Shown: one piece after another, positions 2,759 through 35,138 of the stretch | Layout: each line of letters starts with the position of its first letter | Numbering within the stretch: the first letter of the stretch is position 1 | NCBI GenBank assembly: GCA_003021175.1 | Contig: PXQV01000016.1 | Span: 1 to 35,138 of the forward strand | Length of the DNA: 35,138 bases | From: Halobacteriales archaeon QH_7_66_36 | GTDB lineage: Archaea; Halobacteriota; Halobacteria; Halobacteriales; Haloarculaceae | Direction of reading: 5' to 3' | Notes under the pieces: model-generated | What the model was told of the DNA's origin: nothing | What the model saw: the letters and a program-made list of their open reading frames with translations, nothing else | Database searches by the model: none | Program-made: the position numbers and the translations under genes

Positions 2759-4411
2759 TCACTCCTCCAGCGACGCCCGCCGCAGTTTGCCGGTCTCGGT
2801 CTTGGGTAACGACTCGCGGAAGGCGATGTCGCGGGGGTACTCGTACTTCGCGAGGCGGTCACGGACGTGCTCGCGGAGGCGCTCGCGTATCTCGTCGCTC
2901 GGCTCCGGGCCGTCGAGCACGACGAACGCCTTCGGCACCTCGCCGCGCTCCTCGTCGGGAACGCCGACGACGGCCGCGTCCGCGACTGCCTCGTGGTCGG
3001 CCAGCGACTCCTCGATTTCGACGGGACCGATACGGTAGCCGGCGGAGATGATCACGTTGTCCTTGCGCGCCTCGAAGGCGACGTAACCGTCGGCGTCCAT
3101 CCGGCCCAGATCCTCGGTGCGGAGCCAGCCGTCCGTGACCTTCTCCGCCGTCGTCTCCGGCTTGTTCCAGTACTCGACGAAGCAGACCGGATTGTCCGCG
3201 TAGCGGACGGCGATTTCGCATACCTCCCCCGGCTCGACGGTCGGCTCTGCCGTGTCGGGGTCGACGACCGCGACATCGTGGCCCGGCCCGGGAAGACCGA
3301 TGTACCCCTCCCGTGACTCCGCGAGCGCGGTGCAGTCGCCAACGAGCATGTTGGCCTCCGTCTGTCCGTACCCCTCGTGGACGGCCGCGCCGCCGAAGAC
3401 CCCGTCGGCCCACGAGACGACGCTCTCGCCGAGCGACTCGCCGCCGGAGGCGACGACCCGGACGTTCTCGACGGGGTCCGCATCGACGGTCATCATCATG
3501 CGGAGCGCGGTCGGCGGCGCGAAGAAGCTCGTCACGCCGTTGCGGTCGAGCACGTCGAAGGCGGTCTCGGGGTCGAACGACCCCGCCGACTCGTGGACGA
3601 CCACCGACCGGCCGTAGTAGAGCGCCGGCACGACCACGTCGAACAGCGAGGCGATCCACGCCCACTCCGAGGGCGTCCAGAATGTGTCGCCGTCGCGCAG
3701 ATCGAGGTTGCAAAACGAGGTGAGGAACAGCGGGAGATGGCCGAGCAGCATCCGGTGGGCGTGGCGCACCCCCTTCGGGTCGCCCGTCGTGCCGGAGGTG
3801 TAGATGAGCAGCGCGTCGTCCTCGGCGGCGGTGTCGACGGCCTCGAAGTCCGGGTCGCGGCCCGCGAGCGCGGCGTCGAAGTCGATTTCGTTCGCGCGTG
3901 TCGGCTCCGCCCCGCCCACGAGCGCGACCGTGCCGAAGTCGAGGTCGGCCGTCCCCTCGCGGAACGCCTCGACGCTGTCGTCGTGGACCACGGCGGCGAC
4001 CGCGTCGGCGTCGTCGAGGCGGTATTCGAGCGCGTCGGGACCGAACAGCGTCGACAGCGGCACCGAGACGGCTCCGAGCTTCCAGCAGGCCACGTGCGCG
4101 ATGGCGGTTTCCGGACACTGGGGTGCGTTGACGCCGACGCGGTCGCCCCGCTCGACGCCGGACGCGCGGAGATGGCGAGCGAGCCGACTCGCGGCCGCGT
4201 CGAGGTCGGCGTACGTCAGCGTCTCGCGGCGTGCCCCGTCGACCAGCAGGGCCGGCTCGTCCGGTCGCTCGGCGGCCCACCGGTCACAGACGTACGCGGC
4301 CATGTTGAACCGCTCCGGGACGACCCACTCGAAGTCGTCCCGCAACTCGTCGTAGCTCTCCCACGCCCGCTCGTGAAACCGGTAGGCGTCGAGCCGTCTC
4401 GTCGGTGCCAT
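2759..4411 (-). CDS. AMP-forming acyl-CoA synthetase (acetyl-/medium-chain type)
   Basis: A 550-residue member of the ANL superfamily that activates a carboxylic acid to acyl-AMP and then acyl-CoA. Motifs in order: P-loop-like YTSGTTGDPKGV, acyl/adenine-site GYGQTEAN, GWLRTEDLG with the ATP-ribose Asp, the hinge region KDNVIISAGYRIGP, and the C-terminal KTETGKLRR with the catalytic Lys. The EWAWIASLFDVVVPAL stretch and overall length resemble medium-chain (ACSM-like) enzymes and archaeal acetyl-CoA synthetase homologues; the substrate is not certain. I chose ATG 4409-4411 (MAPTRRLDAY). The frame stays open further upstream, but only through GC-rich sequence that would overlap the divergent gene at 4520. 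Its end abuts the histidine kinase stop. Confidence 0.9.
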   Translation of the reverse strand: MAPTRRLDAYRFHERAWESYDELRDDFEWVVPERFNMAAYVCDRWAAERPDEPALLVDGARRETLTYADLDAAASRLARHLRASGVERGDRVGVNAPQCPETAIAHVACWKLGAVSVPLSTLFGPDALEYRLDDADAVAAVVHDDSVEAFREGTADLDFGTVALVGGAEPTRANEIDFDAALAGRDPDFEAVDTAAEDDALLIYTSGTTGDPKGVRHAHRMLLGHLPLFLTSFCNLDLRDGDTFWTPSEWAWIASLFDVVVPALYYGRSVVVHESAGSFDPETAFDVLDRNGVTSFFAPPTALRMMMTVDADPVENVRVVASGGESLGESVVSWADGVFGGAAVHEGYGQTEANMLVGDCTALAESREGYIGLPGPGHDVAVVDPDTAEPTVEPGEVCEIAVRYADNPVCFVEYWNKPETTAEKVTDGWLRTEDLGRMDADGYVAFEARKDNVIISAGYRIGPVEIEESLADHEAVADAAVVGVPDEERGEVPKAFVVLDGPEPSDEIRERLREHVRDRLAKYEYPRDIAFRESLPKTETGKLRRASLEE

Positions 4412-4519
4412 ATCCCGCCGTGACAAGGAATGACTAACAAGCCTTCGCTTCCCGCGAACGCGACAGTAGCACGCCTCGGGCGTACGGGCCTTCTTCAGGC
4501 AGGCCGTCCAAGCAGCCGT

Positions 4520-6697
4520 ATGAGCGACACGGACCCACTCGCGCGGAACCGTCTCGGGGGAGCGGCGTCGCCGTATCTCCGACAGCACGCCGACAACCCG
4601 GTCCACTGGCAGCCGTGGGACGACGACGCCCTCGCGGCCGCCGAGCGGGAGGACAACCCGCTCTTCCTCTCGGTCGGCTACTCGTCGTGTCACTGGTGTC
4701 ACGTGATGGCCGAGGAGAGCTTTGAGGACGCCGCTATCGCCGACCGACTCAACGAGTCGTTCGTGCCTGTCAAGGTGGACCGCGAGGAGCGACCCGACCT
4801 CGACTCGCTGTACATCACCGTCTGTCAGCTCGTCCGTGGACAGGCCGGCTGGCCGCTCAGCGTCTTCTGTACGCCCGACGGGAAGCCCTTCTTCGTCGGC
4901 ACCTACTTCCCGAAGGAGTCAAGGCGGAACCGGCCCGGCTTTCGCCAGTTGGTCGACCGGATCGCCGACGCGTGGGCCGACCCCGAGGAGCGCGCGGAGA
5001 TGGAGGAGCGCGCCGAACAGTGGACCGCGGCGGCGAAGGGGGAACTGGAGGAGGTGCCCGACGACCCCGGCACGGCCCCGGACGCCGCGTTCCTCGACAG
5101 CGCCGCCAGCGACGCGGTCCGGCGGGCCGACCGCGAGCACGGTGGCTTCGGGCGGGGACAGAAGTTCCCCAGCCCGTCGCGCGTCGACCTACTCCTCCGC
5201 GCCGCGGCCCGCAAAGACACGGACATCTACCGCGCCGTCGCCCGCGAGACGCTCGACGCGATGGCCTCGGGCGGGCTCTACGACCATCTCGGCGGCGGCT
5301 TCCACCGCTACTGCACCGACCGCGAGTGGGTCGTCCCCCACTTCGAGGAGATGCTGTACGATCAGGCGGGCCTCGTCCGGACGTTCCTCGCTGGCTACCA
5401 GACGTTCGGCACGGAGCGATACGCCGACGTGGCGGCCGAGACGCTCGGGTTCGTCGAGCGGGAACTCCAACATCCCGACGGCGGCTTCTACGCGACGCTC
5501 GACGCCCGCTCCGAGTACGACGGCGAACAGGTCGAGGGGGCGTACTACGTCTGGACGCCGGAGGACGTGGCGGTCGCCGTCGACAACGACACCGACGCGG
5601 ACCTGTTCTGTGCCCGCTACGGCGTGGGCGACGCCGGCAACTTCGACCCCGAACAGGAACTCGACGCGTCGGTGACGGGGTGGAACGTGTTGACCGAGCA
5701 GGCGTCCGTCCCGGACCTCGCGGCCGAGTTCGACCTCGACGAGTCGGCAGTCGAGGAGCGACTCGCTCGCGCCGAGGAGCAGGCGCGCGCCGCCCGGGCC
5801 GAACGGCCCCGCCCCGGCCGCGACCAAAAGGTGCTCGCGGGCTGGAACGGGCTGATGGTTTCGGCGTTCGCGGAGGCAGGACTGGTGCTCGACGAGCGGT
5901 ACGCCGACGTGGCGGCCGACGCGCTCGCCTTCGTCCGGGAGCGGCTCTGGAACGACGAGTCGCTGGCCCGGCTCTGGAAGGGCGACGGCGGGTCCGACGA
6001 TAACGCCCAAGGCGACGGCTACCTGGAGGATTACGCCTTCCTCGCGCGGGGCGCGCTGAACACCTACGAGGCGACGGGCGAGGTCGACCATCTCGCGTTC
6101 GCGCTGTCGCTCGGGCGCGCGCTGGTGCGTGACTTCTACGACCCGGACCAGGGAACGCTCTATTTCACGCCCGCGGACGGCGAATCGCTCGTCGCGCGGC
6201 CACAGGAGCTCGACGACTCGTCGACGCCGTCGAGCACCGGTGTCGCCGTCGAGACGCTCGACGCGCTGTCACACTTCACGCCAGACGGGGAGTTCGCTAC
6301 GGTCGCGGAGACGGTGACGGAGACGCACGCGAGCACGCTCGAATCGAGTCCGTTGGAGCACGCCGCGTTCGTGCTCGCCGCGGACGCGCTTGCGGTCGGC
6401 CGTCGCGAGTTGACCGTCGCCGCCGACGGCCTCCCGGACGCATGGCGAGAGACGCTCGGGGACCGCTATCTCCCACTGCGACTCCTCTCGGTGCGACCGC
6501 CGACCGACGAGGGGCTACAGTCGTGGCTCGATACGCTCGGACTGGCCGAAGCCCCACCGATCTGGGCCGGACGAGAGGCGCGCGACCGGGAGGATGCCGA
6601 CGCGGCAGGCGCGGAGCCGACCGTCTACGCCTGCCGCGCTCGCGCCTGCTCGCCGCCGCGACACGATCTTGACGCGGCGCTCGACTGGGAGCCTTAG
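4520..6697 (+). CDS. DUF255 / thioredoxin-domain protein (YyaL, SPATA20-like)
   Basis: A 725-residue protein. The N-terminal part (about 1-165) is the DUF255 thioredoxin-like domain: NRLGGAASPYLRQHADNPV, then SSCHWCHVM with a CxxC redox motif, and QAGWPLSVF. The rest is an alpha/alpha-barrel like the N-acylglucosamine 2-epimerase fold (GGLYDHLGGGFHRYCTD, LAGWNGLMVSA). The family is widespread in all domains of life and its biochemical role is still unclear; the CHWC motif suggests redox chemistry. ATG 4520 matches the usual family N-terminus; an upstream in-frame ATG at 4430 would add residues not typical of the family. Its last 4 bases overlap the end of the convergent metalloprotease gene. 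Confidence 0.9.
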   Translation: MSDTDPLARNRLGGAASPYLRQHADNPVHWQPWDDDALAAAEREDNPLFLSVGYSSCHWCHVMAEESFEDAAIADRLNESFVPVKVDREERPDLDSLYITVCQLVRGQAGWPLSVFCTPDGKPFFVGTYFPKESRRNRPGFRQLVDRIADAWADPEERAEMEERAEQWTAAAKGELEEVPDDPGTAPDAAFLDSAASDAVRRADREHGGFGRGQKFPSPSRVDLLLRAAARKDTDIYRAVARETLDAMASGGLYDHLGGGFHRYCTDREWVVPHFEEMLYDQAGLVRTFLAGYQTFGTERYADVAAETLGFVERELQHPDGGFYATLDARSEYDGEQVEGAYYVWTPEDVAVAVDNDTDADLFCARYGVGDAGNFDPEQELDASVTGWNVLTEQASVPDLAAEFDLDESAVEERLARAEEQARAARAERPRPGRDQKVLAGWNGLMVSAFAEAGLVLDERYADVAADALAFVRERLWNDESLARLWKGDGGSDDNAQGDGYLEDYAFLARGALNTYEATGEVDHLAFALSLGRALVRDFYDPDQGTLYFTPADGESLVARPQELDDSSTPSSTGVAVETLDALSHFTPDGEFATVAETVTETHASTLESSPLEHAAFVLAADALAVGRRELTVAADGLPDAWRETLGDRYLPLRLLSVRPPTDEGLQSWLDTLGLAEAPPIWAGREARDREDADAAGAEPTVYACRARACSPPRHDLDAALDWEP

Positions 6698-7647
6698 GCC
6701 GGCACGCGTGCCAGCCACTTCGCGGGGTCGTTCAACTCTGCGTCGCTCGGCAGGTGGTCGGGCGACTCCCAGACGGCGCTCGCGCCGTGGACGCCTCGGT
6801 CGTCCGCGACGGCATCGAAGAACGCCTTGCCCCGCTCGTACTGGTCGCGTTTCATCCCGAAGCCGAGCAGTCGACGGACGAGCTTGCCGACGGGCGTGGT
6901 GCCGCCGCGCCGCTCGTCGAGCTTCCGGCGCAGGTCGTCGTACTCGTCGTCGAACGCGCGGTCCATCACCAGCTCCGCGTACCCCTCGACGGCCGTCATA
7001 ACGACGTTCACCTCGCGGAGCGCGTCGCGCTCGAACCTGCCCTCGGTGAGTCCCTCGACGCCCGCCTGCATCCGCTCTTCGAGCAGGTCCGAGAGCCACG
7101 GTGCGGTGCCGAACTCCGCGGCGTGTGCCACCTCGTGGAACGCGATCCAGCGGCGGAACCGCGACGGCTCCGCGTTCAGCGTCGTGGCCACCCTGCCGAT
7201 GTTCGGGTGGAGGAAGTAGAGCGCGTGGTCCGACTCGTCCGCGAGGAGGAGCGGGTCGTACTGGCCGAGCACGTTGCCGCCGAGGAACGCCAGCATCGCA
7301 CCCGTCGTGCCCGTGTTGACCGACCGCGCGATGCCGGGAGCCGGTCCACCGAGTTCCTCGACGATGGGTGCCATGACCCGCCGGAACGTGTCGACGTTCG
7401 CGTCGATCCAGTGGTGGCGGTGCTGGACCTCGACGGTCTCGGGCAGGTCGAAGTCGACGCCGGCGACTTCGCGAACCCGGTCGCGGGCGTCGCGCACGTC
7501 GGCGGCGTAGCCGTCGCGCTGGCGTTCGGACAGCGTCAGGTCACCGGGCTGGACGGAGGCTTTCGCGGCCTCCGCGGCGGCGTCCCAGTCGATAGGGCCG
7601 TCGCCGGAACTCTCCGCAACCGCCCGGACCGCACGAAACAGCGTCAT
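6694..7647 (-). CDS. Zinc metalloprotease-like protein (DUF2342 / F420-associated family)
   Basis: A 317-residue protein with the motif AFHEVAHAAEF, a HExxH zinc site, in a large helical protein, preceded by LHPNIGRVA. This pattern fits the actinobacterial and haloarchaeal family annotated as putative zinc-dependent metalloproteases or coenzyme F420 biosynthesis-associated proteins. Proteolysis has not, to my knowledge, been shown for the family. The start MTLFRAVRAV at ATG 7645-7647 precedes the first conserved region; longer in-frame extension would run through repeat copy A and is rejected. It ends in a 4-base tail-to-tail overlap with the DUF255 gene. Confidence 0.8.
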   Translation of the reverse strand: MTLFRAVRAVAESSGDGPIDWDAAAEAAKASVQPGDLTLSERQRDGYAADVRDARDRVREVAGVDFDLPETVEVQHRHHWIDANVDTFRRVMAPIVEELGGPAPGIARSVNTGTTGAMLAFLGGNVLGQYDPLLLADESDHALYFLHPNIGRVATTLNAEPSRFRRWIAFHEVAHAAEFGTAPWLSDLLEERMQAGVEGLTEGRFERDALREVNVVMTAVEGYAELVMDRAFDDEYDDLRRKLDERRGGTTPVGKLVRRLLGFGMKRDQYERGKAFFDAVADDRGVHGASAVWESPDHLPSDAELNDPAKWLARVPA

Positions 7648-7694
7648 ACGACCGGTTGGAATCCGGTTCGCATATGCCTTCTCCCCGGCCGACG

Positions 7695-8004
7695 GGTAGT
7701 GTTCAAATAACAGCGATTCAGCTGGAGGAGCCAGCAACAGAGTGTAGAAAGCCCCCGGTCGCTGCGGTCGCGCGCAGCGCGGACCGTCGGTCGGGCTGTG
7801 GTGTCCTCGCGCGGTTCCACCGCGCGAGCGGGCCGAGGGACCGGCGGTCACTCGCGGCTCACGTCGTCGGGCTTCTCGTAGCGCCCACCGGGAGAGCGAC
7901 GCTCTCCCGAGCAATCGGCGGCAAAGCCGCCGATAACGGCCCCTCTCAGTCCCGCCCACCGCAGTTGCCCAGTCGAGCGACGACCCGCTGATCTGAACAC
8001 TACC
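7695..8004. repeat. Structured repeat element, copy A (MITE-like)
   Basis: A non-coding element bounded by inverted ends GGTAGTGTTCAAAT (left) and GGTAGTGTTCAGAT (right, reverse complement), 13 of 14 matching. Inside are hairpins: arms CTCGCGCGG/CCGCGCGAG (7806-7828), GGGAGAGC/GCTCTCCC (7890-7908) and ATCGGCGGC/GCCGCCGAT (7914-7934). It shares two blocks with copy B at 22327-22663, which lies in the opposite orientation: one from the TGTAGAAAGCCCCC motif at about 7743-7785, the other about 118 bases at 7868-7985. I see no clear target duplication. The terminal sequence resembles the GG-N3-TGTT-CAAA pattern of IS6-family ends from memory; this is not verified. Confidence 0.75.
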
Positions 8005-22326: not shown

Positions 22327-22663
22327 GGTATTGTTCAAATAAATGGGTCGTCGCTCGACTGAACAACCGCAGCAGGCGGGACTGAGAGGGGCCGTTATCG
22401 GCGGCTTCGCCGCCGATTGCTCGGGAGAGCGTCGCTCTCCCGGTGGGCGCTGCGGGAAGCCCGGCGTTCGGAAGACGCGGTGCGTCTTCCGCAGCCCAGC
22501 AGCAATCTGCGATTTCTGCGGACGGTGCAAGCAGCGAGGCGACGCCGCCGCTCACACGGCCCGCGGACCTCCGGTCCGCGCTGCGCGCGACCGTAGCACC
22601 CGGGGGCTTTCTACATCTTATTGGCCGACTATTCGCCGAACTCACTCTTATCTGAACACTACC
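22327..22663. repeat. Structured repeat element, copy B (MITE-like), inverted relative to copy A
   Basis: Ends: GGTATTGTTCAAATAA on the left, and GGTAGTGTTCAGATAA read inward from the right on the opposite strand. The reverse complement matches copy A (7695-8004) closely in two blocks. The conserved hairpins are ATCGGCGGC/GCCGCCGAT (22397-22417) and GGGAGAGC/GCTCTCCC (22423-22441). The variable hairpin here is GGAAGACGC/GCGTCTTCC (22470-22490), unrelated in sequence to the CTCGCGCGG hairpin of copy A but still perfectly paired. It is 27 bp longer than copy A. With the purS upstream region it fills the gene-free stretch 22140-22710. Confidence 0.75.
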
Positions 22664-22681
22664 GTGGTGTCTCCCAGCGGA

Positions 22682-22687
22682 TTTATA
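22682..22687 (+). promoter_or_regulatory. TATA box for the gene at 22711
   Basis: TTTATA, centred about 26 bases before ATG 22711, so probably a leaderless transcript. It lies just outside the right end of repeat copy B, so the gene keeps its own promoter. A second TATA-like site (GTATAAAT, about 22304-22311) lies on the far side of the repeat. Confidence 0.5.
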
Positions 22688-22710: not shown

Positions 22711-23637
22711 ATGGACGTGCCACCGCTCGTGACCGAGCGGCTCGACGGCGAGAGCGTCAGGACACAGGTCGATCTGGGCGGCGAAGACGCCGTCTTCATC
22801 ACGCCGTCTCGGACGCTCGTCTACCGAGCCGAAGGGCTACTCTCCGACGAGTCCGTCTCCGCGTATCCACACGACATCGAGCGGATCGACGCCGTCTCGG
22901 GCCGCCGCAAAAAGACCATCGAGTTGACGTACGTCGACACCGCAGGGAAGTTCACGGTCCCGGAGGACCGCGCCGACGCCGTGATCGCACCGCTGCTCGA
23001 GGGTGTGCTCGCCGTGACCGGCGTGACGAATCCCGACGAGGGTGTTCGGCAGGCGTTCCGATTCTCCGAGTTGACGCTCGTCGTCACGGACGCGCGGGTG
23101 CTCAAACACGTCGGCGGCGCGGTCTGGGACGACGACTTCGCGGCGTACAACTTCGAGGACGTAACCGACCTCGACACGGAGGAGGGGAGCGTCGCGACCC
23201 AGCTCGTGCTCGAAGTCGACGGCCGCCCACAGCGGATCAAACTTCCCTCAGAGGAGGCGGCGTCGGTCGTCCACGCCGTCGAGAGCGCCCTGCTCACATT
23301 CCACGACGTGGACGCGATTCCCGACCTCCACGACGACGAGACGGAGGAGACGCCCGACACCGAGGAGGTCGATTCCGACGAGTTCGGCGACAGCGACATC
23401 GACTCGCTGGTCGACGATCCGGCCGACGCGAGCCATCCGGCGATCGACCGCGTGGCCGACGACGCGTCTCCCGGGAGTCAGGATGATGGCACGACGGCCG
23501 ACGCCGAGTCCGACGCGGCGTCGGTTCACGAGCGGCTCGCCTCCCTCGAAGCGACCGTCGAGCGACAGACCGAACTGCTCGAACGCCAGCAGGAGATCAT
23601 CGAGACGCTGGTCGACGAACTCAGGCGCGGCCGCTGA
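22711..23637 (+). CDS. Haloarchaeal PH-like/coiled-coil protein, unknown function
   Basis: A 308-residue soluble protein. Residues about 1-190 look like two small beta-rich modules of the GRAM/PH-like kind (DAVFITPSRTLVYRAEG, and LTLVVTDARVLKHVGGAVWD). Then comes a very acidic linker (about 205-270) and a C-terminal coiled coil (VHERLASLEATVERQTELLE onward). The domain pattern matches a haloarchaeal family of unknown function. No partner is visible. The leaderless TATA supports the start. It is convergent with the gene ending at 23644. Confidence 0.75.
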   Translation: MDVPPLVTERLDGESVRTQVDLGGEDAVFITPSRTLVYRAEGLLSDESVSAYPHDIERIDAVSGRRKKTIELTYVDTAGKFTVPEDRADAVIAPLLEGVLAVTGVTNPDEGVRQAFRFSELTLVVTDARVLKHVGGAVWDDDFAAYNFEDVTDLDTEEGSVATQLVLEVDGRPQRIKLPSEEAASVVHAVESALLTFHDVDAIPDLHDDETEETPDTEEVDSDEFGDSDIDSLVDDPADASHPAIDRVADDASPGSQDDGTTADAESDAASVHERLASLEATVERQTELLERQQEIIETLVDELRRGR

Positions 23638-34461: not shown

Positions 34462-34553
34462 CATCCTCCGCGTCGTAAACGGAGAGGGAGCGAAGCTCCC
34501 TCAGGCAACCGGGCGTAGCCCGGCGAAGGCGCGGTTTCCCGAGCGTTGGGATA
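34459..34553 (-). ncRNA. Probable TnpB guide-RNA scaffold (omega/right-end RNA), 3' part
   Basis: The stretch between the tnpB stop and the right end carries three GC-rich hairpins (see the mobile element). In TnpB systems this region is part of the right-end RNA, whose guide is copied from the flanking DNA just beyond the end. Here the guide would come from about 34440-34458, the last codons of the small membrane gene. Inferred from position and structure only. Confidence 0.4.
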
Positions 34554-35138
34554 TTATGGTTCGCGGCGCACCTGCTCTTGTAGGGCGACTCCCCCCGTGG
34601 ATTTGTCGAACAGCCGCACCGCTGGCTGTGCCATCCAGCCGTTATCCCTATCTCCCCCATCACAGGCGAGACTCGGGAGTACCTTCTGTCGGATGTTCTC
34701 GGCCCCGTTCACGAACCCATAGGTTGCACACGATTTCGACGTGTCGCGTTCGTCTACGCGCTCGACGCTGATGCCGCGCTCTGCGGCTTTGTATTCCAGC
34801 ATCTCGGTGAAGCGGTCGAACGCCCACCCGTGCAAGTCCAGATTCCCGTGGTCGCCCCAATCGGTGTCCTCACGGATACCAGAGAGGTCGCCCACGACGA
34901 TGGTCCCGACATTCCGGGCGGCGCACTCGGCCACGATGTCCGTCGAGACGGCATAGAAAAAGTGGGCGCGGCGCTCGTCACGCTTCCGGTCCAGTCGCCG
35001 TGCCTTCTGTGAGTCGCTATCGTCGCACTTGGCCCGCTCTTTCTGGAAGTAGTAGTCGTCCTCTTTGAGCGCCCCACCGGGATACAGTAGGGCGTCATCG
35101 CCAACGGCGACCGCCGCAAAGTTGCAGATGCCGAGGTC
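34554..35138 (-). CDS. tnpB: TnpB-like protein, C-terminal part; zinc ribbon and third catalytic Asp missing
   Basis: TnpB is an RNA-guided RuvC-type DNA nuclease of IS200/IS605 elements. The 194 visible codons begin exactly at the first RuvC motif, DLGICNFAAVAVG (Asp at the window edge). They continue through QKARRLDRKRDERRAHFFY, the second motif VVGDLSGIRE (Glu), and then RDTSKSCATYGFVNGAENIR. Intact relatives have a CxxC...CxxC ribbon of about 30 residues between SKSC and VNGAENIR, ending NADVNGAENIR, whose Asp is the third catalytic residue. Here that stretch is gone and the second Cys position is Tyr. The frame stays open to TAA. Likely nuclease-dead. Confidence 0.82.
   Translation of the reverse strand, partial: DLGICNFAAVAVGDDALLYPGGALKEDDYYFQKERAKCDDSDSQKARRLDRKRDERRAHFFYAVSTDIVAECAARNVGTIVVGDLSGIREDTDWGDHGNLDLHGWAFDRFTEMLEYKAAERGISVERVDERDTSKSCATYGFVNGAENIRQKVLPSLACDGGDRDNGWMAQPAVRLFDKSTGGVALQEQVRREP

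Follow-up and report, generated by a model that had tools for sequence, protein, structure and literature searches.

The window analysed here, a stretch of 35,138 nucleotides from Halobacteriales archaeon QH_7_66_36, carries two related elements, copy A and copy B, each lying 47 bp from the ATG of a protein-coding gene and leaving the promoter of that gene intact. The features on which the following account rests are, in window positions:

7645..7647, minus strand: start codon of a gene for a Zincin_2-like protein (PF10103), facing copy A at 47 bp
about 7672-7677: TATA-like CATATG between copy A and the Zincin_2-like gene
7695..8004, plus strand: copy A, a MITE of 310 bp in the long (cassette-bearing) form, terminal inverted repeats and full extent
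7695..7711, plus strand: left terminal inverted repeat of copy A, GGTAGTGTTCAAATAAC
7747..7767, plus strand: left box GAAAGCCC of copy A and left arm of core helix 1, CCGGTCGCTGCGG, read against the consensus
7806..7828, plus strand: cassette X hairpin CTCGCGCGG-TTCCA-CCGCGCGAG, the variable stem of the preliminary description in copy A
7890..7908, plus strand: hairpin H1 of copy A, GGGAGAGC-GAC-GCTCTCCC
7914..7934, plus strand: hairpin H2 of copy A, ATCGGCGGC-AAA-GCCGCCGAT
7922..7957, minus strand: conserved 5' box of the core in copy A, reading GGGCGGGACTGAGAGGGGC in the sense that covaries and matched by the covariance model at 24.8 bits
7988..8004, minus strand: right terminal inverted repeat of copy A
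22327..22663, minus strand: copy B, a MITE of 337 bp in the long form, inverted in the window
22374..22430, plus strand: conserved 5' box of the core and H2 in copy B (covariance-model match, 22.3 bits)
22470..22490, minus strand: cassette Y hairpin GGAAGACGC-ACC-GCGTCTTCC, the variable stem of the preliminary description in copy B
22647..22663, minus strand: left terminal inverted repeat of copy B, GGTAGTGTTCAGATAAG
about 22681-22687: TATA box TTTATA between copy B and the DUF7115 gene
22711..22713, plus strand: start codon of the DUF7115 gene (PF23428), facing copy B at 47 bp

A preliminary description of this DNA had reported A and B as paired repeats with inverted ends and conserved hairpins, and reading both sites bears out these sequence facts. 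The termini are inverted repeats of the form GGTAGTGTTC.../...GAACACTACC, and a near-identical right block common to both copies contains GGGAGAGC..GCTCTCCC, ATCGGCGGC-NNN-GCCGCCGAT and CGGCCCCTCTCAGTCCC. In each copy one stem of 9 bases pairs perfectly (CTCGCGCGG/CCGCGCGAG for A, GGAAGACGC/GCGTCTTCC for B), and the arms of the ATCGGCGGC hairpin are kept while its 3-base loop differs (AAA in A, GAA in B). Helix 1 of the core is imperfect in both copies, with 10 of 13 positions Watson-Crick, two G-T and one mismatch in A (counted by eye) and 11 of 13 Watson-Crick in B. The flanks of A agree at 5 of 8 bases, giving no clear target duplication, and those of B at none of 8, giving no recognisable one.

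These two copies belong to a large family. In the 2.6-Mb host genome, which its GC content and its relatives mark as haloarchaeal, there are at least 76 matches to copy A (40 of 225 first-look candidates scored; in two other candidate searches, 40 of 137 and 40 of 118 were scored). The right-end motif CGGCCCCTTTCAGTCCC occurs 62 + 82, or about 144, times with up to two mismatches, against 0 + 1 for a reversed control, and GGTAGTGTTCAGNTAA has 63 matches with up to one mismatch, against none for its reversed control. The left end of the element is GGTAGTGTTCAGATAAG and the right end is its near-complement. Fifty-three full copies, being those that the pattern rule could delimit, range from 129 to 503 bp; 18 of them are 208-222 bp long, and four are minimal 129-bp MITEs without the core. 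Their 8-bp flanks agree at 8/8 bases in 8 copies, at 7/8 in 9 and at 6/8 in 7, while pairs of unrelated flanks reach these values in 0.04%, 0.15% and 1.1% of cases. Matching at 7-8 of 8 positions in 17 of the 53 copies, the flanks thus carry an 8-bp target duplication, and repeats of this length are made by members of the IS6 family (PMC7986276). The terminal inverted repeats resemble the ends of IS6 transposons, and the elements leave no space for a transposase gene; in archaea, most IS6 proteins have about 211-237 aa (table in PMC6807381). By these tested features, A and B are members of a family of non-autonomous IS6-type transposons (MITEs).

A second type of MITE in the host genome has the same ends and another subterminal sequence, ending in CTTGGAAGCCC (L076:3589-3712, L074:2008, L079:727, L087:565 and L089:596). 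In one host copy, found in L010 and L041 (the same place), cassettes within the element are duplicated in tandem. A likeness of ACTGAAAG to a CRISPR repeat tag is conceivable.

The IS6 transposase domain PF13610 is present in 72 of 117 Halobacteriales genomes searched, in one of six genomes of the host genus, and gave no match in the host genome itself. A helper transposase in the same genome is not a defining property of a MITE: those of Haloquadratum walsbyi have ends and target duplication in common with a helper, and mobile ones lacking a functional helper have been reported (PMC3119063). Among 30 fetched loci, the ends of the MITE recur on PF13610-bearing transposons of other genera (L092, L096 and L112). 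Within the host genus, L243 is an IS6 transposon of 694 bp flanked on both sides by a perfect 8-bp duplication, CTTCAGCT; its ends, GGTAGTGTTCAGATACG and GGCGGTGTTCAGATAAG (...GATACG/...GATAAG), show the same asymmetry as the right and left ends of the MITE, and its transposase reading frame is broken by decay. The earlier suggestion that the ends are those of a MITE, and that a full-length insertion sequence with the same ends should be sought, is therefore borne out by the IS6-type ends, the 8-bp duplications and this transposon. That an IS6 transposase moves the MITE is something we infer from sequence; as PF13610 has no match in the host genome and the frame of L243 is broken, an active mover is at most putative.

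The interior of the element is best seen in the 208-222-bp class, which has no cassettes and follows the plan GAAAG-CCC-arm ... arm'-CCC-CTTTC. Its consensus folds more deeply on the minus strand than on the plus strand (-49.9 vs -37.1). The core proper, of about 115 nt, is a long interrupted hairpin with 12 pairs in helix 1, 6 in helix 2 and 4 in helix 3, separated by internal loops of fixed sequence. When 66 cores from other genomes were aligned, 20 of the 22 pairs had changed on both sides and 93.5% of cells were paired. The covariation score was 0.597 against 0.151±0.010 for shuffled alignments, none of 500 shuffles reaching the observed value, and sliding the partner gave at most 0.093. 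The core therefore has the covarying base pairs by which structured RNAs are recognised. The preliminary description had looked for pairing kept under changed bases and had proposed a covariance model of collected copies as the way to find it; such pairing does exist, in the core between GAAAG and CTTTC and not in the stem that differs between A and B. Searched against Rfam 15, six core-bearing loci gave no family match at E<=1, so a known Rfam family is ruled out for the core. The one Rfam match in the window, sot0042 (102 bits; 34508-34684, minus strand), lies elsewhere than the element, in the lower-GC end of the window, where it overlaps a TnpB-like fragment (PF07282; 34554-34934, minus strand) in its 3' part; it is likely the sense-overlapping RNA of an IS200/IS605-type element.

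The mismatches that do occur in the core tell something about the molecule on which selection may act. Over 139 distinct arm pairs (180 cores minus rows with N, with fewer than 6 of 9 pairs or with identical arms), 1173 of 1251 cells are Watson-Crick. In helix 1, read in the GGGUGGGACUGAAAGG sense, G-U exceeds A-C by 29 to 9, where composition would give a share of 0.54 (p=0.005), and other counts of G-U against C-A gave 20 to 5 and 15 to 6. Such tolerance of G-U in one sense agrees with selection acting on a strand that folds on itself, whether RNA or ssDNA. No wobble bias is seen, however, in the host's own 22 compact copies, with 8 G-T, 7 A-C and 32 other mismatches (part of 25 'ins' rows being left out of this count), which leaves room for a DNA-level contribution to the perfection of the stems.

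The longer copies are mosaics of palindromic cassettes. Among 68 pooled elements, cassette X is present in 24 and cassette Y in 15: X alone in 15, Y alone in 6, both in tandem in 9 and neither in 38. Loops vary while the stems are kept (H2 loops, n=34: GAA 13, GAC 6, GGA 6, GCA 5, AAA 2, TCC 1, AGA 1), and some loops are the reverse complements of others, with both orientations found in cassette Y (TCC 8, GGA 2) and in H2 (GGA 6, TCC 1). In one copy (L086:522-739) the outer arms are intact and everything between them is reverse-complemented, as though the arms had recombined and flipped it. From the loops and this inverted interior, it appears that inversion and copying between arms at the DNA level probably occur. 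One could go further and suppose that the core is kept perfect by DNA processes entirely (template switching between arms, loop inversion and gene conversion) and has no function as a folded RNA. The shuffling of cassettes between copies, the arms in block types and the host copies free of wobble bias would all agree with this supposition, and we regard it as a real if minority possibility. Palindrome repair does not predict, however, that across genera the helices should vary around internal-loop sequences that are nearly invariant, nor the excess of G-U in one sense noted above. Selection on a folded single strand, to which palindrome repair would be added as a second process, is the reading that we infer from these alignments, and RNA is the strand we presume.

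The core reaches well beyond the MITEs of the host. With its exact two-part pattern it was found in 51 named stretches across Halobacteriales, often without IS6 ends, the carriers including species of Halonotius, Halolamina and Natronococcus, and in 37 plasmid records. The covariance model places it in at least 36 of 59 Halobacteriales genomes (at most 63 candidates per genome scored in that search), with at least 88 matches in the host genome and between at least 35 and at least 97 per genome in seven further genomes (at most 150 candidates scored in these two counts). Residence in viruses was considered and rejected: blastn returned no phage record, and an exact 19-mer of the core is absent from viral_contigs. 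Outside the host genus and Halonotius, many cores lack a recognisable IS6 end, which counts against the MITE account: 70 of 87 score at most 12 of 17 on the left, and the reversed control reaches up to 13.

Several arrangements of the core were noticed along the way. No IS6 end was found on the aligned Haloparvum cores (L147, L169, L170, L174 and L176), which have a longer conserved 5' extension upstream with GGCTGGGGAGG, or with GGTTGGGGAGG in L174; the same Haloparvum box is also seen near cores of other genera (L047, L051, L056 and L171), and L147 has repeats of GGGGCTTTC downstream of its core. Head-to-head pairs of cores with a spacer of 25-28 bp occur in L148, L153, L164, L168, L173, L180 and L186. 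In Halonotius the core pair makes up a palindromic MITE of about 340 bp, with IS6 ends on both sides. In five haloarchaeal plasmids (L193, L194, L196, L197 and L199, near positions 4000-4700), the core lies about 500 bp upstream of a gene for an OB-fold DNA-binding protein, in a conserved intergenic stretch rich in perfect palindromes, which could be an origin or transfer region.

The elements also keep a fixed position relative to gene starts. For 66 of 115 ends in host loci there is a facing ATG no more than 150 bp away, and for 31 of these 66 the distance is 46-50 bp, compared with 36 of 835 at random. Among the 53 delimited copies, an ATG with a coding-like frame lies 20-80 bp outside the left end in 30 (20 of them at 46-50) and outside the right end in 19 (8 at 46-50). 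The peak at the left end is about 3 bp wide, with 6 copies at 48, 7 at 49 and 5 at 50. Under a uniform null over the room between neighbouring genes, 8.15 of 49 would be expected at 45-49 bp and 22 were observed (P=2e-8); an element may enter this count twice, once per side, and gene starts rest on a simple ORF rule and not on transcript data. AT content peaks 21-24 bases outside the ends, at 0.63 on the left and 0.47 on the right, which is where the TATA boxes of leaderless genes would be expected; in Haloferax, 72% of protein-coding transcripts are leaderless (PMC4983044). The side that faces the gene is mostly the GAAAG side, so that the sense tolerating G-U pairs in the core runs toward the gene.

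A related spacing is found in other genera. In 14 of 87 cores an ATG lies 86-93 from GAAAG, that is, an end of about 40 nt plus about 48, while 52 of the 87 have no ATG within 250. A second set comprised 93 cores. Here the ATG lies at 80-106 for 10 of the 20 cores of G059 and at 84-99 for 5 of the 23 of G058; G041 has no peak at 80-110 (8 of its 13 cores with an ATG), and for G037 the pattern rule yielded a small sample of five cores. That GAAAG and ATG are separated by the end length plus 47 even where the ends can no longer be recognised suggests decayed insertions. This spacing speaks against an alternative in which the core is of ancient and separate origin, as a repeat or an RNA gene, and was taken up by IS6-type MITEs on one or several occasions, its promoter-side position being a property of the core itself, for example as an insulator or an upstream regulatory element. 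The occurrence, in many genera and on plasmids, of cores that show no IS6 ends, the placement ahead of the OB-fold protein gene in five plasmids and the consistent orientation toward the gene are all what such an origin would give, and it is tentatively kept in mind as an explanation of lower probability. The minimal MITEs of the host weigh against it as well, since they have no core and two of the four still lie at 46-50 from an ATG (L075+2097 at 48 and L072+571 at 46).

The same regularity could in principle have arisen after insertion. If insertions into promoters and genes were purged, and if intergenic room is short, the survivors would be found just outside promoters. Intergenic regions are indeed short, the element rarely falls within the promoter stretch of the gene it faces (6 of 55 element-sides are closer than 44 bp), and there is little free room at several sites, such as L018, L029, L088 and L140. 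Many of the locked sites nevertheless have 70-480 bp of free room, and it is the narrowness of the peak together with the null drawn over the available room that favours steering over purging; we consider purging an unlikely source of the fixed distance. Least of all can the preliminary description be kept where it took A and B for a single structured RNA in which compensated changes had replaced an entire stem, for although the two 9-base stems are both perfect and in similar places, cassettes X and Y stand together in tandem in 9 of 68 elements, are thus non-allelic cassettes and not two states of one stem, and rule the swap out, leaving of that interpretation the MITE ends and a covariation that belongs to the core.

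For site A, the joined flanks were searched in six genomes of the genus and no clean empty site was found; the flanks lie far apart in other genomes, so that only the gene-side half can be compared. The element is absent from this place in G002, G004 and G005, where the gene start is unchanged and the stretch upstream of it is similar and promoter-like. In G001 (L232), where the flank is 95% identical, a MITE with a compact core sits at the same base and in the same orientation as the one at window position 7695, with a different interior, subterminal sequence and right neighbour. This is either a second insertion at the same spot or gene conversion with rearrangement, and it hints that insertion was repeated or that MITEs brought about a rearrangement.

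Taken together, we favour, with a probability of roughly 0.7, the view that these IS6-type MITEs contain a structured core and are guided, when they insert, to a point about 47 bp ahead of gene starts, where core promoters have their upstream edge. In the proposed course of events, an IS6-family transposase would recognise GGTAGTGTTCAGATAAG-like ends, move the MITE in trans and duplicate 8 bp of the target. Insertion would be steered to the upstream edge of the core promoters of largely leaderless genes, usually with the GAAAG side toward the promoter, and copies in the host genus would have gained further palindromic cassettes (X, Y, H1, H2 and others) and exchanged them with one another. The fixed distance would then reflect a choice of target, e.g. 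next to bound TBP/TFB, and not later selection. Among the cases read (22 loci and L243), no IS6 transposon lies at this distance from a start, so the targeting of promoters may lie outside the transposase itself, and there is room for a role of the core or of the MITE ends. A more speculative extension, which we think could well be wrong, is an archaeal transposition system that aims at the preinitiation complex: oriented MITEs would land at the edge of TBP/TFB-bound promoters, the order-wide core would act as a single strand (RNA or ssDNA) in target choice or in shielding the promoter from upstream transcription, and the elements would persist over long periods as upstream regulatory units.

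A start-locked family of this kind, in which a single genome can hold at least 97 core copies, would be a natural marker of archaeal promoters and would probably influence both the expression of genes and the rearrangement of genomes. With it one could test in a simple way if the eukaryote-like transcription machinery of archaea can be read by a DDE transposase of bacterial type. The covarying core, being outside Rfam, is a candidate for a structured element of a new kind, made of RNA or ssDNA.

Yeast retrotransposons are well known for promoter-directed insertion: Ty1 and Ty3 insert at a fixed distance from the transcription start, and their tethering has been shown experimentally. The MITEs described here likewise keep a fixed distance, although the enzymes and the polymerase are different and the steering is here deduced from positions. 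For archaea, no account of promoter-directed insertion was found in open PubMed Central papers, nor anything on point for the covarying core, its sequence or the positional lock. The nearest relatives are the IS6-family MITEs, of which two are known, of 227 and 336 bp (PMC7986276). They are alike in being short, in having no room for a transposase, and in their IS6-type ends and 8-bp duplications; a structured core, cassettes, an order-wide high copy number and a fixed distance to starts are not described in the available portion of that paper. The archaeal IS6 transposons ISH14 and ISH29, of about 696 bp, have GG ends and 8-bp duplications (PMC6807381), as does L243 with its 694 bp; transposons of this type differ in encoding a transposase and, in the cases read, in not standing at a fixed distance. 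The MITEs, SMRs and PATEs of Haloquadratum walsbyi (PMC3119063) are also short mobile repeats of haloarchaea without a transposase. PATEs, however, have neither terminal inverted repeats nor target duplications, the marks of an IS605-type element, and SMRs lack the duplication, whereas the element here has both; the part of that account available to us describes no order-wide covarying core and no start-codon distance. REP and BIME sequences (PMC3733652, PMC2817692) share the many palindromic copies per genome, and the cores here also come in head-to-head pairs, but REPs are palindromes of 20-40 bp, whereas the elements here measure 129-503 bp and have IS6 ends and 8-bp duplications. As a kind of element the MITE is known; what is new here is the covarying core and the positional lock.
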